Assembly (NCBI RefSeq): GCF_029395535.1
Contig: NZ_CP113920.1
Coordinates: 1,612,001-1,676,000, forward strand
From: Bifidobacterium sp. ESL0732
GTDB taxonomy: Bacteria; Actinomycetota; Actinomycetes; Actinomycetales; Bifidobacteriaceae
Reading direction: 5' to 3'
DNA length: 64,000 bases
Part shown: positions 67 to 52,460 of the stretch, one piece after another
Position numbering within the stretch: position 1 is the first letter of the stretch
Layout: each line of letters opens with the position of its first letter
Made by a program: the position numbers and the translations under genes
Notes under the pieces: model-generated
Told to the model about the DNA's origin: nothing
Database searches by the model: none
Seen by the model: the letters and a program-made list of their open reading frames with translations, nothing else

Positions 67-831
67 ATGACAACAACGAAAAACAATGCGGACGCCGACA
101 ACGCGGCACCCATGCTCGACGCGATAGCACAAGCTCCTCAGCAAGATGAAGACACCACACTCGGAACTGCTTGGCTGCTCGGTTTCGACACCGAGACCAC
201 CGGAACCGGTTCGGCTGACGCCATCGTCTCCGCCTCGCTGGTTCTGCGCGACCCCAGCAAAGGCTACGAGGGCGACGTCGTGGCGGAATGGGTCATCAAT
301 CCACACCGTCATATAAGCGCCGGCGCAAGCCGGGTCAACGGGTTCACCGATGAATTCCTCGAGTCCAACGGCGCGGAACCTGCCGACGCCATCGCCGCCA
401 TCGCTTCCATCGTCGCAGCCGCTCAAGGCAAGCAAATCCCGCTGCTCGCCTACAACGCGCCTTTCGACGTGCGCATGCTGGCCGGTGATCTCAAACGCTG
501 GAACCTGAAAGCGCTCCCCGATGAACTTCTGGTGGCCGATCCGCTAGTCATCGATCGCGAGATCTCGCACCGTCACGGCAAGCGCACGTTGACCTATACC
601 ACCGAATACTACGGAGTCGAACCACATGGCGATTTCCACGATGCCACCGCCGACACCACCGCGGCCGTTGACCTCATCCAACCGATGTCCACGCTCTACC
701 CGAAAGTCGGCAACCTAAAGCTCGGTGAACTCATGGACTGGCAGCGCGAGGCGCACAAGAAGTGGAAGGATTCGTTCAACAAGTGGATGGAATCGCGCGG
801 CCGTCGGCCTATCACCGATAACTGGCTCTGA
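67..831 (+). CDS. DnaQ-like 3'-5' exonuclease (DEDD family)
   Basis: This 254-residue protein is a DnaQ/RNase T superfamily 3'-5' exonuclease, probably acting in DNA repair or proofreading. All three exonuclease motifs are visible: DTETTG at residues 41-46 (ExoI), YNAPFD at 129-134 (ExoII) and HDATADT at 191-197 (ExoIIIe, with the general-base His191 and metal ligand Asp196). About 35 acidic, low-complexity residues precede the fold. No polymerase, UvrC-like or BRCT domain is attached, so it could be a stand-alone epsilon-like subunit or a general exonuclease. No clear ribosome binding site precedes the ATG, so the message may be leaderless. It is not obviously in an operon with the murE gene that starts 222 bases downstream. 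Confidence 0.85.
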   Translation: MTTTKNNADADNAAPMLDAIAQAPQQDEDTTLGTAWLLGFDTETTGTGSADAIVSASLVLRDPSKGYEGDVVAEWVINPHRHISAGASRVNGFTDEFLESNGAEPADAIAAIASIVAAAQGKQIPLLAYNAPFDVRMLAGDLKRWNLKALPDELLVADPLVIDREISHRHGKRTLTYTTEYYGVEPHGDFHDATADTTAAVDLIQPMSTLYPKVGNLKLGELMDWQREAHKKWKDSFNKWMESRGRRPITDNWL

Positions 832-1053: not shown

Positions 1054-2616
1054 ATGGCTCTGACTCTGGCAACTGCGGTCGAATTGCTTGATAAGCATCA
1101 TCTTTTGCGGGAAATCATCCAAGGCAAGACTTGGTCGCGTAACCCCGCACGTTTTGCGGGTGCCGAAGACGCTTTTAATTCCATCACCTATGACACACGG
1201 CAGGTGCGCGAAGGTTCGTTGCTGTGTTGCAAAGGCCATTTCAAAGCCGACTATCTTTCAGGCTGTGACGAACACGGACTCAAGGCCTACGTTGCGGAAA
1301 CGGACTTCAGCGAGAAAACCGAAGCCATCGGCATTATCGTCGATGACATACGTAAGGCGATGAGTCTGCTTTCCGCCGAATTTTACGGACGGCCACAGGA
1401 CGAACTCACCGTCATCGGCATCACCGGGACCAAGGGCAAAACGACTACCGCCTACTTTGTTCAGTCGATTCTGAACGCTGCCAGCGATGGCAGGGCTGCC
1501 CTGTTCTCGTCAGTGGACAACTGCCTTGACGGACATACCTACACAGCCTCCGCGCTGACCACGCCGGAATCGATGGACGCGTTCCGCATGATGCGCGAGG
1601 CCCTTGATAACGGAATGCGCTACCTGGTGATGGAGGTCTCCTCGCAGGCTTACAAAGTCGAGCGCGTGTACGGGCTCACTTTCGATGTCGGGGCTTTCTT
1701 GAACATCTCCCCCGACCACATCAGCCCCATCGAACATCCTACGTTCGAAGATTATTTGTATTGCAAACGGCAGATTACGACCAACAGCAAGACGTTGGTG
1801 CTGGGAGCTGACTGCGACCACGCCGATCTTATTGAAGAAGACGCTGCGGCCGCGGGCGTTCCTGTTACCACTTTTGCTTTGCACACCAGCGGCGCAACCA
1901 ATAGCGGGACCAAAGCCGACACCGTTGCATGGCCGGCGGATAAAGACCGTACGGCGTTTCATATCGAAGTTGCAGGCACAACCGGCACCTATAAATTGCG
2001 CATGGATGGCGATTTCAACTATGCCAACGCCGCCGCGGCACTGACCATCGCACAGCTTGCCGGTATCGACCTCAATAATAAAAAAATTTCACACGCACTA
2101 GAAAACGTTCGTATTTCGGGGCGCATGGAGCAGTTCAAGGACTCACACGGACCGAATGTCGCCATCGTCGATTATGCGCATAATTTTGCCAGCGTCTCTG
2201 CCCTGATTGACTTCGCGATCGAACGGTATGGCGCAAACAAGCCACGAATTACGCTTGTCAGCGGCTCGGCCGGTGGCAAGGCGGTAGACCGGCGGAAAGA
2301 AATCATCGACGCCGCGCAGCACCGCGTCGACCGCATCATCATCACCAGCGACGACCCCGACAGGGAACGCGCGGAAGATATCTGCGAGACCATGCAAGCT
2401 GCCGTCAACGATCCCAATGTGCAATCAACCGTCATTATCGACAGGCAAAAGGCCGTCGAAACCGCCATCACCGAGGCACAGGCGCACGATGGTTTCGACG
2501 TGCTGCTGATCGTCGGCAAAGGCGAGGAACAGTGGATCAAAGTGGACGGCAAACACGCCCCCTACGAAGGCGACACCCATATCGTTACCAGGTTGTTCGG
2601 CCAAACCCATTCATGA
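1054..2616 (+). CDS. murE: MurE, UDP-MurNAc-tripeptide synthetase (L-Lys/L-Orn type)
   Basis: This cytoplasmic Mur ligase (520 aa) adds the third stem-peptide residue to UDP-MurNAc-L-Ala-D-Glu. It has the N-terminal MurE domain, the ATP-binding loop GTKGKTT at residues 125-131, TTPE at 169-172, EVSS at 194-197, the Mur ligase lysine in CKRQ near 238, and a C-terminal domain. Where diaminopimelate-adding enzymes carry DNPR, this protein has SDDPD at 432-436. Loss of that arginine points to L-Lys or L-Orn as substrate (family knowledge plus inference). An AGAAAGG ribosome binding site precedes the ATG. The next two genes encode a D-aspartate ligase and an aspartate racemase on the same strand. 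It is the only catalytically complete MurE in the window; the dcw copy at 51491-52378 is degenerate. Confidence 0.93.
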   Translation: MALTLATAVELLDKHHLLREIIQGKTWSRNPARFAGAEDAFNSITYDTRQVREGSLLCCKGHFKADYLSGCDEHGLKAYVAETDFSEKTEAIGIIVDDIRKAMSLLSAEFYGRPQDELTVIGITGTKGKTTTAYFVQSILNAASDGRAALFSSVDNCLDGHTYTASALTTPESMDAFRMMREALDNGMRYLVMEVSSQAYKVERVYGLTFDVGAFLNISPDHISPIEHPTFEDYLYCKRQITTNSKTLVLGADCDHADLIEEDAAAAGVPVTTFALHTSGATNSGTKADTVAWPADKDRTAFHIEVAGTTGTYKLRMDGDFNYANAAAALTIAQLAGIDLNNKKISHALENVRISGRMEQFKDSHGPNVAIVDYAHNFASVSALIDFAIERYGANKPRITLVSGSAGGKAVDRRKEIIDAAQHRVDRIIITSDDPDRERAEDICETMQAAVNDPNVQSTVIIDRQKAVETAITEAQAHDGFDVLLIVGKGEEQWIKVDGKHAPYEGDTHIVTRLFGQTHS

Positions 2617-2670
2617 CACCGAACAGATGCATCCACTGTTTCTGCAATTTTCAGAGGTAAGCTAAGAACC

Positions 2671-3915
2671 ATGAAGCAATTCCAACCGGTACTTTTGGGC
2701 AGCGATATCAACGCCTACGGCATGGCCCGTGCCTTCCACGAGGCGTACGGCATCGTCTCGACTGCCTTCGCGCACTTCCAGCTCGCGCCCACCAGGTTCA
2801 GCAAAATCGTCGACGTCCATATCGTCGACGGATTCGGCCAAGCCGAGACGTTCCGCAAGACGCTGATCGATTACGCCAAAACCTTCAAATCCGGCCATCC
2901 CGGCACCACTCTGCTGCTCATTCCTTGCGGTGACCTGTATGCGAACCTCTTAAGCCATAGCAGCGCGGACCTGGCACCTTACTTCGTTTTCAACACCCTC
3001 GACCCGGCGCTCAACAAGCAGCTGAGCTATAAGAACACGTTCTATGACACCTGCGAGCGTTACGGTCTTCCCTATCCCAAAACCAAGGTCATGACCGAGG
3101 AAAGCGTGGCGCGCGGCGAATACAAGAATCTGCCGTTCAACTTCCCCGTCGCCATGAAACCAGCCGATTCCGCAGCATGGCTCGATATCGACTTCCCGGG
3201 GCGCAAGAAGGCGTTCGTCATCGAGACGCCGGAGGAACTGGACAAGCTCATTAACCTCTCCTACGGCGCCGGCTATCACGCCGAAATGATTCTGCAGGAC
3301 TTCATCCCCGGCGACGACTCTCATATGCGCGTGCTCAACGCCTACGTCGACCGCCATCACCGCGTGCGCATGATGTTCCTCGGCCACCCGCTGCTCGAGG
3401 ACCCGACCCCCGAAGCCGTAGGCAACTACGCGGCCATCATCCCCGATTACAACGAGGAGATATGCCTCAAAATCAAAACGTTCCTCGAGGACATCGGCTA
3501 TGAGGGCGTCGCCAATTTCGACATGAAATACGACGACCGGGACCATACTTACAAGCTTTTCGAGATCAACCTGCGGCAGGGCCGTTCCAGCTATTTCGTC
3601 ACTTTGAACGGCTACAACCTGGCTCGCTATTTCGCTGAGGATTTGGTGGAAGACGCGCCGTTCGACGGCAACACCGTCATCGGCCGCGGCAACAAGCTGT
3701 GGATGGAGATTCCGCGCTCGATTTTCCGCGATTACGTGGTCGAAGGCGAAGATAAGCGTCGGGGCATGAAGATGATCGCTGACGGAGATTGGGGCACGAC
3801 CTTGGAGTATCGCAAGGACATGAACCCGATGCGTTGGCTTTTGATCCGGCACGCGTTCTCGATTTATAAAAAGCGTTACGCGCAGTACTTCAAACAGAAG
3901 GCAGATCTCAAGTGA
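2671..3915 (+). CDS. ATP-grasp ligase, probable D-aspartate ligase for the peptidoglycan cross-bridge
   Basis: This 414-residue protein resembles the ATP-grasp carboxylate-amine ligases that add D-Asp to the side-chain amine of L-Lys in peptidoglycan precursors (Aslfm of Enterococcus faecium). Visible signs are the N-terminal pre-ATP-grasp domain (about 1-110), the nucleotide-binding segment around FPVAMKPADS (about 158-167) and the metal-binding stretch KLFEINLRQGRSS near residue 300. The C-terminal part is basic. The gene lies 54 bases after murE and overlaps the aspartate racemase gene by four bases, so substrate supply and ligation are translationally coupled. Context is the main reason to prefer D-Asp over another amino acid. 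I see no membrane segment. An AGAGG site precedes the ATG. Confidence 0.8.
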   Translation: MKQFQPVLLGSDINAYGMARAFHEAYGIVSTAFAHFQLAPTRFSKIVDVHIVDGFGQAETFRKTLIDYAKTFKSGHPGTTLLLIPCGDLYANLLSHSSADLAPYFVFNTLDPALNKQLSYKNTFYDTCERYGLPYPKTKVMTEESVARGEYKNLPFNFPVAMKPADSAAWLDIDFPGRKKAFVIETPEELDKLINLSYGAGYHAEMILQDFIPGDDSHMRVLNAYVDRHHRVRMMFLGHPLLEDPTPEAVGNYAAIIPDYNEEICLKIKTFLEDIGYEGVANFDMKYDDRDHTYKLFEINLRQGRSSYFVTLNGYNLARYFAEDLVEDAPFDGNTVIGRGNKLWMEIPRSIFRDYVVEGEDKRRGMKMIADGDWGTTLEYRKDMNPMRWLLIRHAFSIYKKRYAQYFKQKADLK

Positions 3916-4643
3916 AACGACCGTTTTTCGCCGTTATTGGCGGCATGGGGACTTTGGCGACCGAATCATATATCCGGCTGATCGACAAGATGAGCGACGC
4001 CGCCACCGATCAGGACTTCCTCGACTATGTGGTGTTCAACGACGCTTCCGTGCCTGACCGAACGGCGTTCATGCTGGGCGATAGCTTCGACGACCCCTTC
4101 CCCGTCATCGCCGATGACATCGCCAAGGCCACAGCCATCGGGGCCAGCTTCATTACGATTCCCTGCAACACCGCGCATTTTATGCTGCCACGTTTCCAGG
4201 AACTTACCGACGTGCCGATTCTCAACATGCTGACCGGCGCCGTGGAACGCATGAAGGCGACTTTGCCCGTCGCAACGCACCCACGCGTCGGTTTCATGGG
4301 CACCGAGGGTTCTCGCCATTCCGGCCTCTACCAGCGTGAAATCGAATCCGCCGGCTACACGTTCATCGAACCCGACGATGAACTGCAGAAGCGCATCGAT
4401 TCGTTGATTTATGACGACGTGAAAAGTGGTGGACCACTAAGCCTTGAGCGCTACCGCTACGTCATCGATACGTTCCTTGACAAGTCTGAGTCGGCTCGCT
4501 ATCGCTGCGATATCGTGGTTCTAGGCTGCACTGAGCTCTCGGTCCTCAATGAGGCCTTCCCGCTCCCTGGCCTTCCCATCATCGATGCCCAAACCATTCT
4601 GGCCGAAGATACTGTGGCGCGCGCGAAGGCACTGCGGCAATAG
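3912..4643 (+). CDS. Aspartate racemase (Asp/Glu racemase family)
   Basis: This 243-residue cofactor-independent racemase of the Asp/Glu/hydantoin racemase family most likely makes D-aspartate from L-aspartate. The two catalytic cysteines sit in typical motifs, PCNTAH (Cys85) and GCTEL (Cys206), and GGMGTLAT at residues 10-17 is the aspartate racemase N-terminal signature. The start is GTG, overlapping the stop of the ATP-grasp gene (GTGA). Together with murE and the ligase it forms an operon for a D-Asp-containing interpeptide bridge. Glutamate racemase is an alternative, but the fusion-like coupling with an Aslfm-type ligase favours aspartate. A perfect 42-bp palindrome follows 45 bases after the stop. 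Confidence 0.88.
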   Translation: MKRPFFAVIGGMGTLATESYIRLIDKMSDAATDQDFLDYVVFNDASVPDRTAFMLGDSFDDPFPVIADDIAKATAIGASFITIPCNTAHFMLPRFQELTDVPILNMLTGAVERMKATLPVATHPRVGFMGTEGSRHSGLYQREIESAGYTFIEPDDELQKRIDSLIYDDVKSGGPLSLERYRYVIDTFLDKSESARYRCDIVVLGCTELSVLNEAFPLPGLPIIDAQTILAEDTVARAKALRQ

Positions 4644-4688
4644 AGCGATAGTAATATTCAAAAACGTATGGCACTTGCCAATAGCAAA

Positions 4689-4730
4689 TTGTGGGCGTGC
4701 GTAAGTGCATGCACTTACGCACGCCCACAA
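4689..4730. terminator. Perfect 42-bp palindrome between convergent genes
   Basis: The arms 4689-4709 and 4710-4730 are exact reverse complements around TGCATGCA, with no unpaired spacer. It lies between the convergent racemase and glycerate kinase genes, so it can act as a bidirectional terminator hairpin. Neither side has a strong T-run, so termination may be inefficient or rely on the stem alone. Confidence 0.65.
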
Positions 4731-4849
4731 CAAATTCGAAATAATAAGCTGGCAATAAAAAACCATAACTAGCCTAACGCTCGGATCTCAGACGGAAGGC
4801 AGGTGCAACGCGCTTGCCTCCGCACAATATTCCATAATTGATTCACGCA

Positions 4850-6016
4850 TCAGCTCAACAGACGCATCACATTTTCTGCGGTGCGGCTGATGTTCTTTTT
4901 TGCCGTCTCTTCGCGAATCGCCTCGGGAAGCGTGCAGACACCAGAGAGCACACCGAAAATGGCATCGATACCCAGACCGTACAGCGTCTCGATTCCATCT
5001 CCCACGTTGCCTGCCAAAGCGATGACCTTGGCGTTCGGAGCAACCTCTTTCACCGCCTGGGCCGTACCCATCGGTGTTTTGCCGTATTGCGTCTGGAAAT
5101 CGATGCCGCCCTCGCCGGTGAAACAGTAATCGATGCCACGGGCCTTGGATTTGAGCCCGGTGGCTTCCACGACGGTTTCAACGCCCGAACGCATGCGCGA
5201 GTCGGTGAACGCAAGGAACCCTGCACCCAAACCGCCGGCGGCACCCGCACCGGGAATATCGGCCACATCGCGACCCAGCTGATGATCAATGAGCTTGGCA
5301 TAATGTTTCAGGCTCGCGTCGAGCTGCTTGACCATCTCCGGAGTGGCGCCTTTCTGCGGGCCGAACACCGCGGAAGCGCCCGTAGGCCCGGTCAACGGAT
5401 TCGTGACGTCCGAGGCAAGGATGATGGACACCCCGTCAAGTCTCGGGTGGAGATCCGAAATATCGATGTTGGCCAGATCCTTCAACGCTAGGCCGCCTTC
5501 TTCAAGCGGATTTCCCTGACCGTCCAGAAAACGGGCGCCAAGGGCACGGGCCATGCCGGAACCCCCGTCGTTGGTGGCGCTTCCACCCAAGCCGACGATG
5601 ATATCGCTGACACCGTGGTCAAGCGCGTTGACGATCAGCTCGCCCGTACCGCGTGTGGTAGCGATGAAAGGATTCTTGGTCTGGTCGTCAACGAATTGCA
5701 TGCCGCTGGCCGCCGCCATTTCGATGACGGCGGTTTTGCCGTCACCAAGCAGACCGTAAGTCGCATCCACCGGCGTACCGAGCGGACCGGTGACCTTTAC
5801 CGTGATGAATGTGCCGTTCGTTGCGTCGACCAACGATTGCACCGTGCCTTCGCCTCCATCGGCCATGGGCACTTTCACACACTTGGCATTGGGAGCGGCC
5901 TTCAAAACGCCGGCTTCCACGGCATCGGCCACTTGCTTGGCGGTAAGGCTACCTTTGAACGAATCCGGTGCGATCAGCACCTTTACTTCTTTGTCTGTGC
6001 TATATCCAGTTGTCAT
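4850..6016 (-). CDS. Glycerate 2-kinase
   Basis: This 388-residue protein belongs to the GarK/GlxK (type I) glycerate kinase family, which phosphorylates D-glycerate to 2-phosphoglycerate and feeds it into lower glycolysis. Family landmarks include VLIAPDSFKGSLTA (residues 13-26), the MADGGEGT loop at 51-58, and GLGGSATNDGGSGMARALGA in the middle of the protein. The length matches the family. A strong AAGGAG site precedes the ATG on the minus strand. It stands alone, convergent with the D-Asp operon, and no glyoxylate or tartronate semialdehyde gene lies nearby. Its glycerate source is therefore not evident here. Confidence 0.92.
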   Translation of the reverse strand: MTTGYSTDKEVKVLIAPDSFKGSLTAKQVADAVEAGVLKAAPNAKCVKVPMADGGEGTVQSLVDATNGTFITVKVTGPLGTPVDATYGLLGDGKTAVIEMAAASGMQFVDDQTKNPFIATTRGTGELIVNALDHGVSDIIVGLGGSATNDGGSGMARALGARFLDGQGNPLEEGGLALKDLANIDISDLHPRLDGVSIILASDVTNPLTGPTGASAVFGPQKGATPEMVKQLDASLKHYAKLIDHQLGRDVADIPGAGAAGGLGAGFLAFTDSRMRSGVETVVEATGLKSKARGIDYCFTGEGGIDFQTQYGKTPMGTAQAVKEVAPNAKVIALAGNVGDGIETLYGLGIDAIFGVLSGVCTLPEAIREETAKKNISRTAENVMRLLS

Positions 6017-6397: not shown

Positions 6398-9300
6398 TCA
6401 GCTATTGTGCTCGAGCTTCTGGCTGACGACCGCAGTGACGCCGTCGGAGCGCATCGTCACTCCGTAGAGGGCATCGGCGATGGCCATTGTGCGCTGCTGG
6501 TGAGTGATGATGATGAGCTGGGCGTGCTTGCGCAGGTCATTGAACGCGTTGATCAGGCGGGTCAGGTTGATGTCATCAAGTGCAGCCTCGACCTCATCCA
6601 TCACATAGAACGGGCTGGGACGCGCGGTAAAGATGGCGAAGAGCAGGGCCAAAGCAGTGAGACTGCGTTCGCCGCCGGAAAGCAAACTCAGCTGCTTGAC
6701 ACGCTTGCCTGCTGGGCTCGCCTCCACGATGACGCCCGTGGTCAACAAATCGTCAGGATTTTCCAAACGCAGACGTCCCTTACCACCCGGGAACAATGTT
6801 GCGAAGACCTTTTCAAACGCAGCAGCCGTGTCATCGAAAGCGTTCTTGAACACCTCGATCATCGTGCGGTCGAGGTCCTGGATAAGCTTCAGCAAATCAT
6901 CGCGGCTCTTGGCGACATCATTGCGTTGGTCGTTCAAGTACTGGTTACGCGTCTCGAGCGCATCAAACTCCTCAGCCGCCAGGGGATTGATCTTGCCCAG
7001 CGCCTTTAGATCGCGTTCGGCTTTCTGCAGACGCTTCTGCTGCTCGGCACGGACGTACGGCACCATCTGGTAATGGTCGGCATCAATCGGTGCATCCTGG
7101 TTTGAATCGTTGTAACCATCAGCATCAGACGTCTCTTCACCGGAATCGCGCTGGTTATCAATTTCGTCGTCACTGTTTGCCAGCGGAATCGGATGGCCTT
7201 CGTCATCGAGCACCGGAACCAGCTTGTCGGGGCCGTATTCGTCAACCAACGCTTCGAGATCCAAGCCCAGCGTGTCCGAGACTTTCTGCTCGATCTGGCC
7301 ATATTGCGCGGCCAGACGCTCACGGTTCACATCCAGTTCATGCTCACGTTGTTGCAAAGCGGCCACTTTTGGCTCAGCTTCGTCGCGCCTTGCACGCAGT
7401 TGCTTCAGTTCGGCATCGTGGCTTGAAGCGGCCTTGGAAAGCTCGTCACGCTTGGCGACCACCGTCTTGAGCTCAGCGGAAACCAACGCGGCCATACCAC
7501 GTGCGTCCGCGGCAATTTGCCGGTCATGGGCTTGCTGATGTTCACGCTTTTCGTTGAGCGCCTTTATCTTCGTGCGCCTTGCCACGGCTTCGCTTGCCTG
7601 ATCATGGAGCAGACCAGCCTGGCGCACGAGCGAATCGGCCTTGCGATTGGCGTCGTTCCAAACGATCTTGGCCGAGACTTCCTGCTCACGCGCCTTATCC
7701 AGCGAAGTCTCGAGTTCGTGGACGCGCTTGTCCAAATCATCAAAGTCCTCGTTGTCGGTATCGGAATGTTCCGCGGTTTCCAGCGCCTGCGCCAAATCCT
7801 CAAGTTTAAGCTGATGTGTCTGGCGGTCGTCATCGGTCTGCTTGATTTTTTCGTCAAGCCCGCTGAGCTGTTTCGTCAGTTGCTTGACCCGTTCCTCGAC
7901 ATTCTTGAGATTCTTACGCGCCTGATCGGCTTTGACCTTAGCTTGAATGCGTTGCTGGGATTGCCTATCGACTTCAAGACGAGCTTTATCACGCGCCTGC
8001 GTTGCTGCTTCAATCTTTGGATGTATAGCATCCGCTTTGCCCTGAAGTTTTTTAGCTTCCGCCATCGCCTTGTCACGTCGCGCAGCCAGTGAAAGGTCGC
8101 TCTGCGAGCGCGAGGAACCGCCGATAGCGCCCACAGCGTTGACCACTTCACCGGCTTTGGTGACAGCCTGGCTGAACCGCCTCTGCTTGTCTTCCACGGC
8201 TTCCAGCGCCGTGTCCATATCAGGTACGGCAGCGACGTCATCAAGCAACAAACGGACGGCGCGAACAACGTTTTCGGCGAAATCAGCGTCTTTGGCAGAG
8301 TCATTGACACTTACCAAAGTCGAGGCGCAACGAACCGGATACCGGCTGTCTTTTCCGTTGCCATTCCCGGCTTCAGCGTTGTCAACAGCTCCCTCTTCAA
8401 GCGGATGCAATACAACAGCCTGCCCAAGCTTACCTTCACTGGCCCGGCGCAAGGCCTCGACCATATTGGATTTGCCAGGCACCACGATGGCGCTGGCAAA
8501 CTGGTCGAGCGCATGGGCGATGGCTTCTTCCCAGCCATCCTCGACGTGAATGAAGTCGGCAAGTCTGCCCAGCGCGGCCACGGTGTTATCCTGCTCGAGC
8601 TCGCCGGAAGCATTGCGGCTTTCCAGCGTCTCATTCAACGCGTCTGCCTTCGCCTTGAGCGCCGTCACCTTGGCAGTTGTGGCTCGCAGCTGCTCTTGCA
8701 AGGCGTCAAGTTCCTCCTGACGCTGTTGCATCGCGGTTTTCGCCGCTTCGAGATCCGCGGCGCTGTCTTCTTCACCGGCGTTCTGCGTTTCCGTTTCAAA
8801 CGCATCACGCTGGGCAGTGGCATCGTTACGCTGTTTGGCGATGGATTCACGCTGCCCGTTAAAGTCCTTGGCACGGCTTTGCGCCAGTTCAATGGCCGAT
8901 TCCTCACGCGTCTTGAGCTCGCGCAGATTGGCAACCTTCGAAGTGTGTTCCTGCGCAGCCTTGCGCAGTTCCGTCAAGGTCTGACGGGCCGCAGCGAGCT
9001 GCTTTTCATTGCCGGCACGAGATTCAGTCGCTTTGTCATAGGCGATGCGCATGTCGGAAACGCTCTTTTTCTGGGCTTCGGCCTGTTCGTCCAATTCCTT
9101 GGCACGGGACTCGAGAATGTCCGGATCTTCGCCGAAGTTCGTAATCATCTGACCGGCGAGGGAACGCGCACGCTCGTCGGCAAGCGAGGCCAGCGAACGG
9201 AACCTCTCCTCGATGCTCGAGAGCTCATGCCATGTCTCGTTGATTTTTTCCATGGCCGGGCTGGACTCGGAACTCAGCGCCTCGACCTGCTCGATATGCA

Positions 9301-10099
9301 CCTTGACTTTCGCCAAATCGCGCTGCGCGGTTTCCAGTTCTCGGCGCACGTCTCCCAAGTCGTTGCGTAGTTTGGCGCGACTTTCCATGGATTTCTGGGC
9401 ATCTTCGGCGAAAATCCTCGATTGCGCATCACGCAAGGAAATCTGGATGCTGGCTGCACGCCGCGAAATCTTGGCCTGCCGTCCCAGCGGTCCCAGCTGC
9501 CGGCGAATCTCGTGCAGCAGATCGTCGGTGCGTGCAAGGTTCGCCTCGGTGTTCTTGAGCTTGCGTATCGCGCGTTCCTTGCGTTTGCGATGCTTCAGGA
9601 TGCCAGCGGCCTCTTCGATAAACGCGCGGTGACCAGCGGGGTCGGCCTTCAGAATCTCGTCAAGCCGACCCTGACCGACGATGACGTGCATCTGCTGGCC
9701 CAAACCAGTGTCGCTCAACAGTTCTTGTATATCGAGAAGTCTGCAAGGTGAACCGTTGATGGCGTATTCGCTGCCGCCGTTGCGATAGATGGTGCGGCTG
9801 ATGGTGACTTCCGTGTAATCGATATCAAGCGTGCCATCGGTGTTGTCGATGGTCAGACTCACCTGCGCGCGCCCGAGCGGCGGGCGGGAGGATGTGCCTG
9901 CGAAAATGACGTCTTCCATCGAGGTGCCACGCAAATTTTTGACACCCTGCTCCCCCATCACCCATGTCAGCGCGTCGACGATGTTGGACTTGCCAGAACC
10001 GTTCGGGCCGACCACAGCCGTGATACCCGGCTCAAAGCGCAAAGTGGTTGCGGAAGCAAAGGACTTGAATCCCCTGAGCGTCAGTTCCTTCAGATACAT
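6398..10099 (-). CDS. smc: SMC chromosome segregation ATPase
   Basis: This 1233-residue protein is the structural maintenance of chromosomes ATPase, the core of the SMC-ScpAB condensin that organises and segregates the chromosome. Walker A GPNGSGKS lies at residues 31-38, the ABC signature LSGGERS at 1140-1146 and Walker B FYVMDE with the catalytic Glu at 1164-1169. Two long coiled-coil arms flank a hinge at about 500-660. An acidic insertion rich in Asp, Asn and Ser interrupts the C-terminal arm shortly before the head. An AGAGGAAG site precedes the ATG. folC lies upstream on the same strand, separated by a tandem hairpin repeat. Confidence 0.97.
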   Translation of the reverse strand: MYLKELTLRGFKSFASATTLRFEPGITAVVGPNGSGKSNIVDALTWVMGEQGVKNLRGTSMEDVIFAGTSSRPPLGRAQVSLTIDNTDGTLDIDYTEVTISRTIYRNGGSEYAINGSPCRLLDIQELLSDTGLGQQMHVIVGQGRLDEILKADPAGHRAFIEEAAGILKHRKRKERAIRKLKNTEANLARTDDLLHEIRRQLGPLGRQAKISRRAASIQISLRDAQSRIFAEDAQKSMESRAKLRNDLGDVRRELETAQRDLAKVKVHIEQVEALSSESSPAMEKINETWHELSSIEERFRSLASLADERARSLAGQMITNFGEDPDILESRAKELDEQAEAQKKSVSDMRIAYDKATESRAGNEKQLAAARQTLTELRKAAQEHTSKVANLRELKTREESAIELAQSRAKDFNGQRESIAKQRNDATAQRDAFETETQNAGEEDSAADLEAAKTAMQQRQEELDALQEQLRATTAKVTALKAKADALNETLESRNASGELEQDNTVAALGRLADFIHVEDGWEEAIAHALDQFASAIVVPGKSNMVEALRRASEGKLGQAVVLHPLEEGAVDNAEAGNGNGKDSRYPVRCASTLVSVNDSAKDADFAENVVRAVRLLLDDVAAVPDMDTALEAVEDKQRRFSQAVTKAGEVVNAVGAIGGSSRSQSDLSLAARRDKAMAEAKKLQGKADAIHPKIEAATQARDKARLEVDRQSQQRIQAKVKADQARKNLKNVEERVKQLTKQLSGLDEKIKQTDDDRQTHQLKLEDLAQALETAEHSDTDNEDFDDLDKRVHELETSLDKAREQEVSAKIVWNDANRKADSLVRQAGLLHDQASEAVARRTKIKALNEKREHQQAHDRQIAADARGMAALVSAELKTVVAKRDELSKAASSHDAELKQLRARRDEAEPKVAALQQREHELDVNRERLAAQYGQIEQKVSDTLGLDLEALVDEYGPDKLVPVLDDEGHPIPLANSDDEIDNQRDSGEETSDADGYNDSNQDAPIDADHYQMVPYVRAEQQKRLQKAERDLKALGKINPLAAEEFDALETRNQYLNDQRNDVAKSRDDLLKLIQDLDRTMIEVFKNAFDDTAAAFEKVFATLFPGGKGRLRLENPDDLLTTGVIVEASPAGKRVKQLSLLSGGERSLTALALLFAIFTARPSPFYVMDEVEAALDDINLTRLINAFNDLRKHAQLIIITHQQRTMAIADALYGVTMRSDGVTAVVSQKLEHNS

Positions 10100-41114: not shown

Positions 41115-42503
41115 CTACTTGATAATCGGACGGAGCGGTGCCGAAACATCGACCTGATGCTTGTCGCCTATTTTGGTGGGGTCGTTGATGATCTTATCGA
41201 CCACGGCCTTCTTGAGTTTCATGTCGGAAGAATCTCCCCAGACAATGACCCGTTCGCCTCCATTGAGCTCCGTCGTGACGGAATCCTGGGTTTTCGCGGT
41301 CACCTTGGTAATGGAACCACGCATATTGTGCCCAAGAAGATTCAGGACCTTCAAAGCCTGCTGAACCGAACGATCGCGAAGACTCGTTTCCACGTTGTTG
41401 ACTTCGATGACAGGAATCCCCTTGGTCGAGACGTTTTCGACCTTGTTGAGTACTCGCCCGTACCCATCGACCGCAGTCTCGCTGCCGTCGGGAGTCTTCA
41501 GCATCGCTGCAGGCTCCTGCGCCGTAATCGTGACCTTGATTGCCTTCGGATAGATTTTCTCAACTTTGGCCATCGAGACACCAGGAATGTCTTTCAGCTC
41601 CTGTTCAACGTCCCCGCTCGAAACCAGCAGCAGCGATTTTCCGGCCTGTTTCTCAGCAATCGAAACGACACGGGCCTTACCGACCCACTGGTTCTCGCCC
41701 GACACCGAAATCTGGTGGGCATCAAGCAAAAAGACCGGCGAAAAGAAGAGCAGCCACCCAAGAGCCGCCAAAAGAGCCACAACCACCAGGGCAATCAACA
41801 CTTTGGTCATCGTCTTAAACCTACTGACTCGCCGACGTTCCTTCAAACGCGCATTGAAATCGATGACCTTGGGACGTGCCGCAATACCCAACGGGCTTGA
41901 GGTCTGGTTCAAGGTTTCACCCACCAGATCCTCGTTTTTCAGTGCCCGGGCATCGACAAAATCGCCCGGAGCGCTTTTGGTGACGGCATTGGCCGACGAA
42001 GCCGATCGCGCTGAACGGGAAGGCCGAGAAGCCTGATCCGTATCCGCCAATGGCTCATCGATACCGTATTTCGGTTTCGTCGATTGACGACGTTGGAAAA
42101 AACCGACGGATTTTTTGTTGCGGGATTTCGGCGAATCGGAGGATCGGGAAGATCGTCCGGCACCCGAAGATGCTTCCGAAACCGCGACCCTGCGCTTTTT
42201 ACGGCGAGGATCTACGGTCGTGTCATCTCTTACAGGCGTACCGGATACCACCGAACGCGTCCGACGCCCGGAACCACTTTCGGAACCCTTCGCTGACAAT
42301 CCAGACGATTTTCGTCCGTTTCCCCCGCTATGGGAATCCGAATTTTCGGTTTTGCGCCGCTTTCCCGTCGACACGCCAAAATCGTTGACCCTGGGTTCAT
42401 CCTCCGAAGACGCAGACCAACGAGACGAAGAAGCGGCACTTCGACCACGACGGTTTGAACCGCCTTTCCCTCCGCCTCCACTGGTTACATGACGACCTGC
42501 CAT
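41115..42503 (-). CDS. ftsQ: FtsQ, division-site POTRA protein with a long disordered N-terminus
   Basis: This 462-residue single-pass membrane protein is the last gene of the dcw cluster here. About 230 Ser/Arg/Lys-rich, low-complexity residues precede one membrane helix (about 232-255). A POTRA domain (VFLLDAHQISVSGENQWV, IPGVSMAKVEKIYPKAIKVTI) and an FtsQ C-terminal domain (VDGYGRVLNKVENVSTKGIPVIEV) follow. It links FtsL/FtsB-type proteins in the divisome. The cytoplasmic tail is much longer than in E. coli FtsQ. Its ATG overlaps the murC stop by one base (TGATG), indicating translational coupling. ftsZ does not follow it. Confidence 0.9.
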   Translation of the reverse strand: MAGRHVTSGGGGKGGSNRRGRSAASSSRWSASSEDEPRVNDFGVSTGKRRKTENSDSHSGGNGRKSSGLSAKGSESGSGRRTRSVVSGTPVRDDTTVDPRRKKRRVAVSEASSGAGRSSRSSDSPKSRNKKSVGFFQRRQSTKPKYGIDEPLADTDQASRPSRSARSASSANAVTKSAPGDFVDARALKNEDLVGETLNQTSSPLGIAARPKVIDFNARLKERRRVSRFKTMTKVLIALVVVALLAALGWLLFFSPVFLLDAHQISVSGENQWVGKARVVSIAEKQAGKSLLLVSSGDVEQELKDIPGVSMAKVEKIYPKAIKVTITAQEPAAMLKTPDGSETAVDGYGRVLNKVENVSTKGIPVIEVNNVETSLRDRSVQQALKVLNLLGHNMRGSITKVTAKTQDSVTTELNGGERVIVWGDSSDMKLKKAVVDKIINDPTKIGDKHQVDVSAPLRPIIK

Positions 42504-44209
42504 CAGCGCGAATCCTTCGCACGCGCTTTGAGCAAATCAAGCATGACGTCATCCATTTCGGTGACATCTCCCGCTCCGACTGTGATAAGGACATCACCCG
42601 GCTTTGAGTGACGGACCAACGTCGCGGCGCCGGACTTAAGATCCTTTGAAGCCGAAATCCAACCTTGAGAGGGGTTATGAGGCAAGCTGCCAGCAGCATC
42701 GACAACGACCTGGGAGGTGATATCCGGGAAATCCTCCTGACGTTCACGTGCCGGGTAAATCGGAGCGATGACGACATCGTCGGCCTTGGCCAGTGCGGCC
42801 GCAAACCGGTCGATAAAGAACTTGGTACGGCTGAACAGATGCGGCTGGAACAGCACACGAATGATGGAATCGGGATATCGGCGACGGGCGGCATCGAGTA
42901 AAGCCGCGATTTCGGTAGGATGGTGGGCATAGTCGTCGACCACCGTCACCCCGTCAACAACGCCGTTGACCTCGAAACGACGAGACGCGCCTTTGAAGGT
43001 CGCGGCCGTGCGGGTGGCGAGCGCCGGATCCATTCCCAAGAGCGTAGTGACGATGATCGCCGCGGTCGCGTTGCGGGCGTTATGGATACCCGGAATCCGC
43101 AAAGTGACCGGGATGCGGCGCTTTTCGTCAGATCCGGCAAAACCTGCCGGCAACTCGATGGTGAACCGTTCCGTGCCATCTCCCGCGCTTTCCTGCTCTG
43201 AAAGGATATGGACAAGCTGCGGACGAACAGCATCGGTATCGGTCGGTTTATCTTTATTTTCAGCAGATTTTTTATGCATCGTGCCGCTGGTGCTATTGTC
43301 GCGAACGTTCGCATCATTCAAGCCCACGATTTGAGTGATATCAGCGCTCGCCTGCGTCGTATAGCAGATTGTCTTGGCGGCCACCTCAGCCGGTAACGCA
43401 CGCACGATGGCCTGCGCGCCCTTGTCGTCGACGGACATGACCACGTATCCCTTGGCATGGCTGGCGTATTCGACGAACGCCTGCTGGTAGTGCTCGGCAT
43501 CTCCGTAATGGTCGAGATGATCGGCCTCAGCGTTGGTAATCAGTGCGAATTGCGGCCGGTATTTTTCGAAACTGCCGTCAGATTCGTCTGATTCGGCCAC
43601 CAACACGTCGCCGCTGCCCGCGTGTCCGCCATCAATGGCGACACCATCAGGGCCTTGGATGGAACCACCGATGGCATAGCTCGGATCGGCAAGCTTGACG
43701 GCCATGCCGGCTTGTGCGCTGATATCGATTCCGCCATCGGCTTGTGCTCCAGCGTTGACGAGAATATGGGAAATCAGCGAACTTGTGGTGGTCTTGCCGT
43801 GCGCACCGGCGACGCTGACCGCACATTTGCTGGCCATCAGCAGCGCGAGGATATCGCTGCGATGGACGATATGCGCTCCAGCAAGAGCGGCCGCAACGAT
43901 TTCGGGATTGTCTGGTTTGATAGCGCTGGAATAGACGACGGTCTGCGCACCCACAACGTTTTCGGCTCGCTGGCCAAAATAGACCTTGACACCCAAGGCA
44001 GTCAGCCGGTCGGTTTTGGCGTTGGCTGCGCGGTCGGAACCGGAAACCTCGACGCCTTGTTCGCTGATCATTTCAGCGAGTACGCTCATGCCTGCTCCGC
44101 CGATACCGATGAAATGGGTGTGTCCCAGCGACGTCAACGTATCCGACGGGCCGAACGCGGCCTTCGTCGGGTCAAGCACGATGGGTTCAGAGCCGATAGT
44201 TGACTGCAC
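42503..44209 (-). CDS. murC: MurC, UDP-MurNAc--L-alanine ligase
   Basis: This 568-residue Mur ligase adds L-alanine to UDP-MurNAc. It has the UDP-binding GIGGAGMS (35-42), the ATP loop GAHGKTTT (135-142), ALITNAEADHLDHYGD, IHNARNATAAI and VVDDYAHHPTEI. About 40 polar residues (DNSTSGTMHKKSAENKD region) are inserted in the central domain, so it is longer than the usual 460-490. A GTG at 44209 is favoured because AAGGAG lies six bases before it; a GTG six codons upstream would include that site. murG lies upstream with a 182-base gap. Confidence 0.95.
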   Translation of the reverse strand: MQSTIGSEPIVLDPTKAAFGPSDTLTSLGHTHFIGIGGAGMSVLAEMISEQGVEVSGSDRAANAKTDRLTALGVKVYFGQRAENVVGAQTVVYSSAIKPDNPEIVAAALAGAHIVHRSDILALLMASKCAVSVAGAHGKTTTSSLISHILVNAGAQADGGIDISAQAGMAVKLADPSYAIGGSIQGPDGVAIDGGHAGSGDVLVAESDESDGSFEKYRPQFALITNAEADHLDHYGDAEHYQQAFVEYASHAKGYVVMSVDDKGAQAIVRALPAEVAAKTICYTTQASADITQIVGLNDANVRDNSTSGTMHKKSAENKDKPTDTDAVRPQLVHILSEQESAGDGTERFTIELPAGFAGSDEKRRIPVTLRIPGIHNARNATAAIIVTTLLGMDPALATRTAATFKGASRRFEVNGVVDGVTVVDDYAHHPTEIAALLDAARRRYPDSIIRVLFQPHLFSRTKFFIDRFAAALAKADDVVIAPIYPARERQEDFPDITSQVVVDAAGSLPHNPSQGWISASKDLKSGAATLVRHSKPGDVLITVGAGDVTEMDDVMLDLLKARAKDSR

Positions 44210-44391
44210 GATACGCTCCTTGGACACTAAAATCTACCGTTGAAAAACATCACTGATGCCGTTATACCCGATTCCTCGGCTTTATCGTTGCCTTGGACGC
44301 AAACCCACGCAGACTACTTGCAATTCACTGAACTGAATGGACAGACACACTGAAATGAAGCAACATTGGGCATATCCTGCCATACAGTCAG

Positions 44392-45561
44392 CTAACGGCC
44401 GGAATCGGCGAAGTCAAGGGCAATACGGGCCATAATTTCGGCGGCGTCACGGATGCCGTAATCGTGCGCCTTGCGGCCCATGTCCTCAAGCCTTTGGGAA
44501 TCGGCAATCAAGGCAGGTACATGCCCACGCACCCAATCCGATGAAAAATCAGCGTCAGCAACCATCAGCCCGCCTCCGACGTCGACCACCGGCTGCGCGT
44601 TGAACCGCTGCTCACCATTGCCGATAGGCAGCGGCACATAAACGGCCGGCATGCCGATGGCGGCCAATTCGCTGACCGTTCCGGCACCGGACCTGCAAAT
44701 CACCAAATCGGCCGCCGCAAACGCCAGATCAATGCGTTCCAAATATTCGGCGACATGGTAATCACCGTGGCCTGCGTGGGCCGGGTCCAAATCGGTGAGC
44801 GCCTGCTCCCCTGCCGTCTGAATCACATGCCGATTGACCTCAGCGCTTTTCTTGCGCCCGGTAAGGTGAATGACCTGCGTGACTTTCAACAGGTCGGCGG
44901 CCGCAGCGCTGACGGCCTCATTAAGGCTTACCGCTCCCAGCGATCCACCGGTAACTACCACCAAAGGACGTTCAGGATCGATGCCGAGTTGCGCGGCGGC
45001 GAGCTTTCGTGTGCATTGCCTGTCATCTTCCAGTTTTTGGCACAAATCTGCCATTACCGGCCGCAATGGGAGCCCGACGCGGCGGATTTCGGCGCCGCCA
45101 TGCGCTTTAAGACCGGTGTTTTCGTAAGCGGTGCCGATGAAATCAGCCCAACGCGCACCCAGTTTGTTGGCCATGCCTGCACGGGCGTTCTGCTCGTGGA
45201 TGACAATGGGCAGTCCCATGGAATGCGCCACGGAATAGACGGGCGCGGAAACGTAACCGCCGAAACCGACCACCACGTCGGCCTGACGACGCTCGAGAAT
45301 TGCACGCACCTTCTTCTGCTCCTGCCGCCACCGACCCGGGAAACGCAGCGCCTGCATGTTTGGACGCCGCGGGAACGGCACCTTGGCGATGGTGTCAAGT
45401 TCGAAGCCGGCCTGGGGCACCAGATCGCGTTCCAGTCCAACGTCGGTGCCAATCACGCTGATGCCAGCCTGCGGGTCTTGGCGCTTGATGGCGGAGGCGA
45501 CGCTTAAGAGCGGGTTGACATGCCCGGCCGTACCGCCTCCGGCCAATACGATATGTTTCAT
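44392..45561 (-). CDS. murG: MurG, UDP-GlcNAc:lipid I N-acetylglucosaminyltransferase
   Basis: This 389-residue GT-B glycosyltransferase converts lipid I to lipid II at the inner face of the membrane. The N-terminal [12 protein letters not shown] loop, the [12 protein letters not shown] segment (canonical HEQN), [13 protein letters not shown] and the C-terminal [27 protein letters not shown]-GlcNAc site are all visible. The length is slightly above average. It lies in the dcw order between ftsW and murC. Confidence 0.96.
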
Positions 45562-45627
45562 ATTCTCTTTCCCTGTCCGCCTCTATAACGGTATCGTCAA
45601 CGTCTTTTTACCATTCTTCAGCATCTT

Positions 45628-47034
45628 TCAGACACGCGACGAAGTGATATCCATATGAATCTCAGGCTGCATTCTCATCATACTGGTGGATACACCCGCC
45701 GCAAAGAGGCACATCACCAAGCTCGAGCCGCCTGCCGAAACGAACGGCAACGGCACGCCCATCACCGGCAGCAGGCCAATGACGACCATAATGTTGATCA
45801 GCGCCTGACCCACAATCCAGATGGCGATGCAGATCAGAACGCGAGAGGCGTATTTGTCGGGAGTCTGCAAGGCGATGACGAACATGCACCAGCCAAGGAT
45901 GGCGAAAAGAATAACCACGGCGGCGGCACCCACGAATCCGGTCTCTTCGCCGATGATGGCAAAGATGAAATCGTTGTGGGCCTCTGGCAGATAGTTCCAT
46001 TTTTCGCGGGAATTGCCGATACCTACGCCGAAGAGCCCACCTGAGGCCATGGCATATTTGGCATGCATCGATTGGTAGCACTCCCCCTGCAACGCGGAAG
46101 CCGGGCAGGGGCGATACGCGGCTGTAATACGAAGCATACGGTTTGGACTGGTCACCACAAACAGGACCACGAGCGCCAGCAGCACGAGACCAGACCCGAT
46201 CAGCCATTTAGTCGGGAAACCTCCGACCAACATCGCAGTGACGCCGATGGCCACGAGAATCAGCGCCGTACCGAGATCGCCGCCGAGCATGACGGCGCCG
46301 AGACACCCCATAAAGACGACAATCAGAGGCAGATAGGCTTTGAAGCCCTCGCGCTCATAATGTTTTGCCGCCGAGGCCACAGCCCACGGCATCCAGATAC
46401 ACAAAGCGAGTTTCATGAATTCCGCCGGCTGCATGGAGCCGAGGCCAGGTATGCCGATCCACCCCTTGTTTCCGTTGACCTCAATCCCGATCGGCGTCAT
46501 GGTCAACAGCTGCAGACAGATTGCGATCACCACGAACACAAACGAGGCCTTGCGGTAGCTTTCAGAGCGGAAACGCATCGACACGAAGCAGGCGATCAGG
46601 CCTAGCACACAGAAGAACCCCTGTGTTAGCGCCTGTTTCCAAGGGGAAAGCCCATAGGAAATCATGGTCACCGAAGAGGCCGAAAACACCATGACCACTC
46701 CGAAGCAGGTCAGGGCGATCACCGCGATGCGGAAACCGTAATAGCACCACAAAGGGTTCATCAACGCGTGGATGCCTGAATAATCGGTGACTTTGAGCAC
46801 TTCGGAGGTATCGGTATCGACCTGCCGGTCGGAGACACCCACATCCTTAACTTTGTAATACATCAGATTCAGGCGTGATCGCGATTGCCTCTTGGTTTTA
46901 TCGCGGTCTCCATCTCGAGAGTTGACGGTTTTGCTTCGCCCGTATCTGGACACAGAGTTGCGGCCTGAACGGGTCTTTTTCTTGGCCCTGCGTTCCGGTT
47001 TGCTTTCATCGTAGTCGTATACACGTCTAGCCAT
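45628..47034 (-). CDS. ftsW: FtsW, SEDS-family septal peptidoglycan glycosyltransferase
   Basis: This 468-residue polytopic protein has a basic cytoplasmic N-terminus of about 90 residues, then about ten membrane helices. The SEDS landmarks [43 protein letters not shown]-like (here [14 protein letters not shown]) and [11 protein letters not shown] are present. It polymerises lipid II at the septum with FtsI. The ATG at 47034 overlaps the murD stop by eight bases (ATGGCTAG), so the two are translationally coupled. Longer in-frame starts would extend further into murD and are unlikely. Confidence 0.95.
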
Positions 47035-48529
47035 GCTTGCGTACCCAATCACGGGCGGCGTCGGCAAACTGCGAGCCGCGGTCGGCATACGAGACGAACT
47101 GATCCATCGAAGCGCAAGCCGGTGCCATCAGCACCACGTCGCCACTTTCGGCATAGTTGCCGGCGGCTTCGACTGCACGATCCATCACGCCTGCTTTGTC
47201 TTTAGGATCAATGACGGTCAAGGGGATATCCGGGGCGCTGGCCTTGAAGGCGTCGAGCATGGGCTTCTGGTCGACGCCAATAATGACGGCGGCTTTGATG
47301 GTTTTGGCCTGATCGGCCACGAGGTCTTCGAAATGACCACCTTTGGCCAAGCCTCCGGCAATCCAAACCACAGATTTCGGCTTGTAGCTGGAAAGCGAGG
47401 CGTGGGCAGCATCGGCGTTGGTGGCCTTGGAATCGTCTACGAAACGCAATGTGCCACCATCTTTGAAATGTTCGGTGGCGACGGTCTGGATGCGATGGCC
47501 GCCGGGGGCAAAGGCACGCAGGGCGTCAAGACAGCGACCCGGATCGGCGCCCAAGCCCATCGCCAAAGCAAGGGCGGTGATGGCATCGGCCAAAAGGTGC
47601 GGATAAACCGTACCGTCGGGTTCGCATAGATGCGAGAATTCAGTGACTTTGGCCAGTGCATTCATATCGCCGGCCGGAGCGCCTGCCAAGCCGCTGGCGT
47701 CGACGATCCAGCCGTCGGCAATGCCGATCTGACCGGGTTCGGGGGCATGGAGAGTGAAGCCGATCTTGCGACATTCCGGACCAGTCTGTGCCGCTTGGGC
47801 AAGATTTGTGACACGTTCATCGTCGGCATTGAACACCAGCACACGCTTGGCCGCATGGAAGACCTTGGATTTGTCGGCCGCATAATTGGCCATGCCACCG
47901 TGCCAGTCGAGGTGATCGGCGGCGATATTGGTGATGGCAGCACAATCGAGCGCCAACGAATCGGTGAAATGCATCTGGAAGCTGCTCAATTCCACGCACA
48001 ACACATCATGTTTCGGGTCGACGGCAGCCAGGCTTACGGATTTGCCGATATTGCCCACGGCCGGGGCGTCCATACCACAATCAGTAAGCATGGCGGAAAC
48101 CATCTGCGTGGTCGAGGTCTTGCCGTTCGTACCGGTGATGCCTATCCAATACGCGGGTTCGTGCAACGCCGAATGTTCGGCCGGGACCCGCAGCGCCCAA
48201 GCCAGCTCAACCTCGCTGATCACCGGAATACCTCGGCGCTGGGCTTCAAGGATAAAAGGTGTACGCGGATTGAAAACCGGCGAGGCGACGACGATATCAA
48301 CATCGTCCCAATCGATATCGTCAAAGGAATGCAGATCGGCTTCAGGCTTCTTCTCGTCGACGCTCAACACACGGCCCGCGCGACCTTGCAAGGCTTCGAC
48401 GGCACCGCGACCGGAAACTCCGAGACCGGCTACCAATACGGTCTTGCCACTTACATCGAGACGTGACGACCCGTTTGCGGCGCCGTCACGACGCACCGAC
48501 GAAAAACCGGAATCTCCTGCACTCTGCAT
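47027..48529 (-). CDS. murD: MurD, UDP-MurNAc-L-alanine--D-glutamate ligase
   Basis: This 500-residue Mur ligase adds D-glutamate to UDP-MurNAc-L-Ala. It has [17 protein letters not shown] at the N-terminus, the ATP loop [28 protein letters not shown] and [12 protein letters not shown]. The ATG at 48529 is preferred because GAAGGAAAGG lies ten bases upstream; this removes 28 residues of an upstream in-frame extension that would overlap mraY. It lies between mraY and ftsW. Confidence 0.95.
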
Positions 48530-48582
48530 CTCAATCTGCCTTTCCTTCAAGCTTTTAGCCTCAACGTTGATTCGAATAGTCC

Positions 48583-51389: not shown

Positions 51390-51490
51390 CGTATGCCACC
51401 TTTTGTCCATATATCTTTAATATTGCCAGCAAAGCAAACCGTAGTCAGTCTGTACACAACATGCCAGACGAAATACCGTCGCAAAAGCTT

Positions 51491-52378: not shown

Positions 52379-52460
52379 GCTTCGACCTTTCCCGCAGGAA
52401 ACGTCGGGTAGCGGCCAGCTGCCACTGCTCTGTCCCGTTTCATGCTGTTATCACCATTTG

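Follow-up and report, generated by a model that had tools for sequence, protein, structure and literature searches.

We analysed 64,000 nucleotides of Bifidobacterium sp. ESL0732 (GCF_029395535.1, NZ_CP113920.1 positions 1,612,001–1,676,000, forward strand; this whole stretch is the window, and its genome is labelled G000), in which murE, an ATP-grasp ligase gene and an aspartate/glutamate-family racemase gene follow one another (Table 1). It had been suggested in a first-pass annotation that these genes form a self-contained operon for a Lys/Orn-D-Asp peptidoglycan cross-bridge, and that murE had left the dcw cluster to travel with the bridge genes, so that cross-bridge type and third residue could change together by one transfer. 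The three open reading frames (ORFs) and the four-base overlap of the ligase and racemase genes (bases 3912–3915, GTGA) are as that annotation described them. A 54-bp gap separates murE from the ligase gene, no terminator-like site was found on the + strand of this gap, and we infer that the three genes are co-transcribed. Since same-order homologues of the trio recur across the Bifidobacteriaceae, the arrangement is not due to chance. The enzymes themselves are an ordinary set, each step being explained by a known family, as had been stated.

Table 1. Features of the window (positions counted from its first nucleotide; DAP, diaminopimelate).
Feature	Position	Strand	Basis and remarks
DnaQ-like 3'-5' exonuclease gene, left flank of the cross-bridge slot	67..831	+	PF00929, 43.6 bits
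murE, UDP-MurNAc-tripeptide synthetase, non-DAP type, predicted Lys, possibly Orn	1054..2616	+	520 aa, ATG; TIGR01085 and NF001129 above cut-off; resident lineage in the MurE tree
MurE codons 433–436 (DDPD), position of the DNPR/DNPA side-chain loop	2350..2361	+	Alignment; EDTD in G105, G102, G038
MurE codons 488–492 (GKGEE), second pocket motif, probable counterpart of the S. aureus Glu-460 loop	2515..2529	+	Counterpart predicted from motif alignment; GKGNE in G105, G102, G038
ATP-grasp carboxylate-amine ligase gene (LIGa), predicted D-aspartate ligase of the AslA/Aslfm kind	2671..3915	+	414 aa, ATG; AlphaFold model and fold matches
Aspartate/glutamate-family racemase gene (RAC, RacD-like)	3912..4643	+	243 aa, GTG; TIGR00035, 199.6 bits; 1JFL, E 3.1e-30
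Racemase catalytic Cys85 codon (PCNTAH)	4164..4166	+	Aligned to 1JFL
Racemase catalytic Cys206 codon (GCTELS)	4527..4529	+	Aligned to 1JFL
20-pair hairpin in the gap where the racemase and glycerate kinase genes converge	4688..4731	.	T tail on - strand
Glycerate kinase gene, variable filler between racemase gene and smc	4850..6016	-	PF02595, 493 bits; glyK match in 8 other loci
Presumed smc, right flank of the slot	6398..10099	-	1233-aa ORF
dcw cluster: murC, murG, ftsW, murD, mraY, murF, FtsI-like transpeptidase gene, rsmH; without murE	42503..55830	-	NCBIfam matches

The window MurE exceeds the cut-offs of TIGR01085 (282.5 bits, cut-off 257.3) and NF001129 (851.1 bits, cut-off 762), carries the Mur ligase middle and C domains (PF08245 and PF02875), and is the single MurE above the TIGR01085 cut-off in the whole genome. 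It had been described as being without the DNPR signature of DAP enzymes, and this is correct: S-D-D-P-D-R stands at codons 432–437, where DAP enzymes have DNPR, and by this loop (DDPD) the protein is not of the DAP type. No DNPR loop was found among the Bifidobacteriaceae rows listed in the MurE alignment. The second pocket motif is GKGEEQW in 11 of 12 MurE proteins of the window's clade (GKGEETW in G025) and GKGNERW in G105, G102 and G038, while DDPGFEDP and DDPGHEDP are the loops of two lactobacillar MurE proteins. Peptidoglycan of type A3alpha is a Lys type. An EDT loop was considered as a sign of Orn and rejected, because a genome that we take to be B. animalis also has EDT. The accessible part of one paper assigns type A3alpha to B. 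animalis subsp. lactis (PMC8660834). For Staphylococcus aureus MurE, the available portion of one study reports that two residues of the C-terminal domain, Asp-406 (the first Asp of the loop) and Glu-460, touch the lysine side-chain amine, that specificity for ornithine is 400-fold lower, and that the pocket lacks specificity for lysine (PMC3829189). Loop and pocket changes may alter residue 3, a proposal weighed down by EDT in the genome taken to be of A3alpha type and by the unspecific S. aureus pocket.

The ligase had no match in a Pfam search and no convincing match in a PDB sequence search. Its AlphaFold model, from an alignment of 44 window and locus sequences (predicted local distance difference test, pLDDT, 93.1; predicted template modelling score, pTM, 0.89), has the ATP-grasp fold that had been proposed, D-Asp being the predicted substrate. 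It matched ATP-grasp enzymes at Z 22–26 (26.5 to 2PN1, 23 to PylC; Foldseek E ~1e-14). The PylC entries 4FFL and 4FFM were among the closest folds (Z 22.5–23), with deposited complexes that include L-lysine-Ne-D-ornithine, and none of the fold matches listed was named as a D-Asp ligase. Two marks of a D-aspartate ligase are present, namely the ATP-grasp fold and a linked aspartate racemase, here joined by the four-base overlap; across the loci compared below, 66 of 85 ligases have a racemase at the locus. The closest named relative by ligase is Bifidobacterium sp. isolate B-bin1 (97%). Lactobacillar relatives of the ligase are 42–51% identical, and Bombilactobacillus mellis Hon2 encodes a ligase 47% identical to that of the window. 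In the part of the species description that could be consulted, the peptidoglycan of the B. mellis type strain is A4alpha L-Lys-D-Asp (PMC4156108).

The racemase scores 199.6 bits against TIGR00035 (cut-off 93.1). Both catalytic cysteines had been claimed for it, and Cys85 and Cys206 do align with the cysteines of 1JFL, which we take to be the P. horikoshii-type aspartate racemase; by model score and cysteines it is an aspartate racemase. A FemAB search (PF02388) of the window genome gave 0 matches, so no competing tRNA-dependent, FemABX-type bridge was found there and the ligase–racemase pair is the sole bridge system seen. The enzyme classes, the absence of FemAB from the genome and the homologue in an L-Lys-D-Asp organism support the D-Asp bridge operon that had been suggested. 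In the pathway we propose, MurE would place L-Lys (or L-Orn) at position 3, L-Asp would be turned into D-Asp by the racemase, and the ligase would activate D-Asp with ATP and couple it to the side-chain amine at position 3. D-Asp would thus enter the cross-link, giving the third-residue and bridge part of an A4-type peptidoglycan.

We searched 189 Bifidobacteriaceae genomes, in which the ligase had matches in 102, murE in 176 (1e-60) and the racemase in 79 (1e-10). From these, 100 stretches were taken with ligase-bearing genomes favoured; together with the window and L039, and with a separate G185 ligase locus excluded, they gave 101 murE loci, whose gene content was mapped with a tblastn panel. 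Because of the favoured sampling the variant counts are no frequencies, but the interval between murE and smc (the window ORF at its right end is taken to be smc from its sequence) held ligase and racemase genes in 47 loci, Fem only in 17, Fem, DegT and ligase in 12, Fem, ligase and racemase in eight, all four in six, ligase only in six and none of these in five. A few loci had Fem or DegT just upstream of murE instead of between murE and smc. At the flanks, smc and/or the neighbouring gene c1 lay downstream of murE and ran against it in 98 of 101 loci (in G036, G158 and G164 the expected right flank was absent from the stretch compared), and dnaQ was near murE in 66 of 101. On an 80-genome rpoB tree, module class changed at least 24 times by parsimony, against a mean of 37.9 and a minimum of 32 with shuffled labels.

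The murE position bears directly on the idea that murE had left dcw to travel with bridge genes. It does lie outside dcw, as had been noticed: the cluster, at ~42–56 kb of the window and ~40 kb away, has no murE. Counted by eye, a second Mur-ligase match lies within ~500 bp of murE in at least 31 of the 35 genomes compared from other families of the order (G227 and G228 are clearly without, and G207 and G225 are not among the matches listed), against 0 of 4 Bifidobacteriaceae. Movement of murE with the bridge genes was nevertheless rejected, since murE sits beside smc/c1 with or without D-Asp genes. As this position is common to relatives without D-Asp genes, the displacement is old and family-wide, and murE is a resident of the locus and not a traveller. 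The comparison of murE neighbourhoods that had been recommended went against the annotation on this point, the same murE place being kept without D-Asp genes.

Exchange at the locus was seen in the window's own clade. Four relatives (G095, G098, G103 and G100) have a module identical in type to that of the window. Four others (G096, G104, G097 and G099) keep murE at 87–90% and the racemase at 93–94% identity, with a ligase only 36% identical and an added Fem gene; for G096 the values are 90% for murE, 93% for the racemase and 36% for the ligase. G105 is 99.5% identical to the window in RpoB, 84% in dnaQ, 62% in murE, 52% in the ligase, 93% in the racemase and 91% in smc, with Fem and DegT genes added. 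The corresponding values for G102 are RpoB 99.7%, dnaQ 81.5%, murE 62%, ligase 33% and smc 90%, and its racemase gene is absent. In both genomes murE and bridge genes were replaced jointly between conserved flanks, and in G105 the murE divergence is spread over the entire gene, beyond the C-terminal part. G038 keeps the ligase (82%) and racemase (86%) beside a murE of 60% identity. The murE genes of G105, G102 and G038 form a separate clade in the MurE tree (support 100). Window-type and other murE are each found with LIGa and with other ligases, so that all four combinations occur in one clade and the two genes recombine apart. Thus, the murE–smc interval is an exchangeable cross-bridge locus in which murE at times takes part.

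We consider it very probable, judging from these sequences, that the three genes make a peptidoglycan with a Lys (or Orn)-D-Asp cross-link and that the murE–smc interval serves as an exchangeable cross-bridge locus. Homologous recombination would act through conserved flanks, namely dnaQ with the 5' part of murE to the left and the racemase gene and/or smc to the right. It would swap bridge genes and sometimes murE, wholly or partly, and so would switch the bridge type, and perhaps residue 3, between close relatives. No integrase or transposase was found among the ORFs named at the locus, where no search was aimed at integrases or repeats.

Partial replacement of murE was also seen. The MurE of a genome that we take to be B. 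breve is 85% identical to that of a presumed B. longum over residues 1–240 and 50% over residues 280–516, while the latter region is 79% identical to G088. Change-point tests were run on 12 triplets selected with hindsight, so the results serve as illustrations: nine reached p ~0.002 (the floor with 500 permutations), two others gave 0.008 and 0.012, and the last gave 0.31. Several MurE proteins look like domain mosaics with breakpoints within the gene. Two adjacent murE matches occur in 18 genomes (19 less G099, which has one broken gene), the first of the two in G077 being a fragment. In the MurE tree, from which the second G078 copy (an intact gene) and the overly short G099_1, G077_1 and G159_1 were left out, the second copies form one clade of 24 rows (support 99). 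Copy 1 has an EDT or EDS loop and copy 2 a DDP loop in 16 of 16 readable pairs. In G094 (L085), a draft genome with assembly error possible, the tandem murE genes share one sequence for 859 bp towards the 5' end, yet their C-terminal parts have 39% identity; they look like a domain-swapped pair. In G099, murE is split into two overlapping frames (L057:4002-5548; residues 1–231 and 215–515), for which a frameshift, a sequencing error and a broken essential gene are candidate explanations.

Do murE, ligase and racemase move as one unit, so that third residue and bridge always change jointly? The joint replacement in G105 and G102 fits such movement, as do tandem genomes in which murE2-LIGa-RAC stands behind the resident murE, and the murE2 of G152/G160, which groups with that of G030/G082/G085/G086 when murE1 does not. 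Partial distance correlations given rpoB point the same way among 39 LIGa genomes, with rho 0.61 for ligase–racemase, 0.35–0.37 for ligase–murE and 0.34–0.57 for racemase–murE (p 0.005, 199 permutations), against −0.04 to 0.16 for the neighbouring gene c1; partial Mantel tests are liberal and these correlations are descriptive. Over all 47 ligase and racemase genomes the ligase–racemase value was only 0.16 (p 0.055), as would be expected if one racemase were kept while ligases were swapped. The four murE and ligase combinations in one clade already weaken one-unit movement. Given rpoB, module class was not associated with the N-terminal or C-terminal part of MurE (p 0.67 and 0.36). Among close pairs (RpoB at least 97.5%, pairs not being independent of one another), the MurE C-terminal part was less than 65% identical in nine of 41 same-module pairs and in 16 of 43 different-module pairs (20 of 43 with the first copy), and 19 of the 43 different-module pairs kept at least 80% identity there. 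Movement as one unit is therefore unlikely, and the trio moves together only in part. Of the annotation's claims, that residue-3 and bridge genes are able to change jointly is borne out by G105 and G102, inheritance of the three genes together is visible in the LIGa correlations and contradicted by their recombining apart in the window's clade, and the self-contained unit is contradicted both by the four combinations and by ligase–racemase pairs without murE outside the family. A DDP loop as a marker of the ligase was also rejected: raw counts gave a ligase in 32 of 35 DDP genomes versus 28 of 45 non-DDP genomes, and independent pairs gave no support (median p 1 for the ligase, 0.69 for the racemase).

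It is about equally improbable that the ligase has a substrate other than D-Asp (e.g. D-Glu or L-Asp) and that the racemase has another purpose. An ATP-grasp fold leaves the substrate unfixed, the racemase family is broad (the window racemase scores 153.7 bits against the CuyB cysteate racemase model, below its cut-off of 190), and related ligases occur at the same locus without a racemase. This last group comprises 19 of 85 ligases; 18 of them fall in two clades, and the 79 racemase-positive genomes (match anywhere, E 1e-10) include none of the genomes that carry these 18. Against another substrate stand the overlap and co-inheritance of ligase and racemase in LIGa genomes, the 47% identity to the ligase of an L-Lys-D-Asp species, and the way racemase presence tracks ligase clade. 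Because the clades without a locus racemase also have no racemase match in the genome, we infer that racemase-less ligases would be D-Glu ligases fed by MurI, and the racemase-linked clades D-Asp ligases. MurI was found in 13 of 13 genomes tested, including the window genome and three with racemase-less ligases (G102, G113 and G021). FemAB matched five times in the presumed B. longum genome and once each in the presumed B. breve and B. bifidum genomes, and these counts fit the wall types of the three species (Orn-Ser-Ala-Thr-Ala, Lys-Gly and Orn-D-Ser-D-Asp, respectively).

The tandem murE genes in 18 genomes mean that hidden paralogy is possible, but an ancestral many-gene locus with differential loss of old paralogues and no exchange is very unlikely, as relatives with RpoB at 99.5–99.7% and smc at 90–91% identity have diverged by 38% in MurE and also differ in the presence of whole genes, MurE mosaics have breakpoints inside the gene, and all variants would have to coexist in recent ancestors.

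Several points weigh against an exchangeable D-Asp bridge locus. The wall type of the strain is deduced from genes alone, and the likeness to AslA/Aslfm is drawn from fold, gene context and lactobacillar relatives and not from alignment with the E. faecium or L. lactis enzymes. The Lys-ligase model NF010628 scores 410.7 against a cut-off of 536, so the window MurE is not a Lys-type equivalog by that model, and the best NCBIfam MurE model, NF001129, carries a diaminopimelate ligase label; naming the protein a 2,6-diaminopimelate ligase despite the missing DNPR is likely a misannotation of bifidobacterial murE. To these are added the favoured sampling of ligase-bearing genomes, an rpoB tree built on one gene fragment, and the use of smc and dnaQ, which are linked markers.

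An ATP-grasp D-Asp ligase and an aspartate racemase that make a Lys-D-Asp bridge are described for the Lactococcus lactis racD-aslA operon and Enterococcus faecium Aslfm in the part of a review open to us (PMC4155827). The window resembles these in having both activities, the ligase as predicted, in one operon, and differs in that murE stands immediately before the ligase gene and that relatives have exchanged the interval for other bridge genes. The same source links Lactobacillus plantarum murE to asnB1, for DAP amidation (PMC4155827); there too murE adjoins a gene that modifies residue 3, but DAP is amidated, no bridge is made, and the passages seen of the published account mention no exchange. 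Peptostreptococcus russellii (L046:5992-9444; L047) has the three same activities adjacent in the order ligase–racemase–murE, with murE 30% identical and last where that of the window is first, and its linkage is probably of independent origin, so that linkage would have arisen more than once. FemABX genes take the same slot in the presumed B. longum and B. breve genomes and are absent from the window genome; these enzymes use aminoacyl-tRNA and add L-amino acids or Gly. PylC shares the fold and, in the deposited complex, the joining of D-ornithine to the epsilon-amine of Lys, but has ~12% identity to the window ligase and acts on free lysine. The literature on bifidobacterial bridge genes that our search covered, most subscription papers lying outside it, described no murE-linked exchangeable bridge locus.

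Outside the family, Propionimicrobium lymphophilum DSM 4903 (L041:3909-8012) carries an asparagine synthase–ligase–racemase block 58–72% identical to Bifidobacteriaceae proteins, with a LIGa ligase of 71% identity and no murE in the 13-kb locus. Its ligase falls into one group with those of four G049/G120-type genomes (ligase tree, support 99), which makes interfamily transfer likely. Transfer of the whole trio was rejected, the best murE match being only 31% identical to the window MurE. Levilactobacillus likewise has a ligase–racemase pair and no murE in its 13-kb locus.

Peptidoglycan type is a long-standing species marker for bifidobacteria, and we know of no genetic cause for the differences in type between close bifidobacterial species. 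More interesting than the operon itself is the exchangeable locus. If the reading is right, slot content would be a testable code, in which a racemase stands for D-Asp, a ligase without racemase for D-Glu, Fem for an L-residue or Gly, and Fem with DegT for D-Ser, and it would account for shifts between neighbours in a wall chemistry that is targeted by endolysins, bacteriocins and immune receptors. The DegT-family gene lies on the strand opposite murE in 18 of 101 loci (L068:10108-11319 and 17 others), always with Fem and ligase. Its putative pyridoxal phosphate (PLP) residue Lys167, with Asp138 and His141, is invariant in 17 aligned rows, and the nearest folds to its model (pLDDT 89.3) are nucleotide-sugar aminotransferases (Z ~30). 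As the bridges of B. bifidum and B. boum contain D-Ser, we hypothesise that DegT epimerises Ser bound by its carboxyl group, the free amine reacting with PLP, and DegT is a candidate source of D-Ser in D-Ser-D-Asp/D-Glu bridges. As a tentative extension, the murE–smc interval might be a wall-type switching island, in which tracts ending in murE would swap the C-terminal pocket domain and change residue 3 (Lys/Orn) and bridge in one event, tandem murE pairs would give mixed Lys/Orn walls, and DegT, found only with Fem and ligase, would epimerise Ser on residue 3 to yield the D-Ser-containing bridges.

A homologue of glutamine-dependent asparagine synthase was found in ten ligase stretches (L041, L042, L043, L056, L060, L087, L093, L102, L103 and L104), where amidation of bridge D-Asp is a candidate function. 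The T tail of the hairpin downstream of the racemase gene is on the - strand, so it is probably the terminator of the convergent glycerate kinase transcript.

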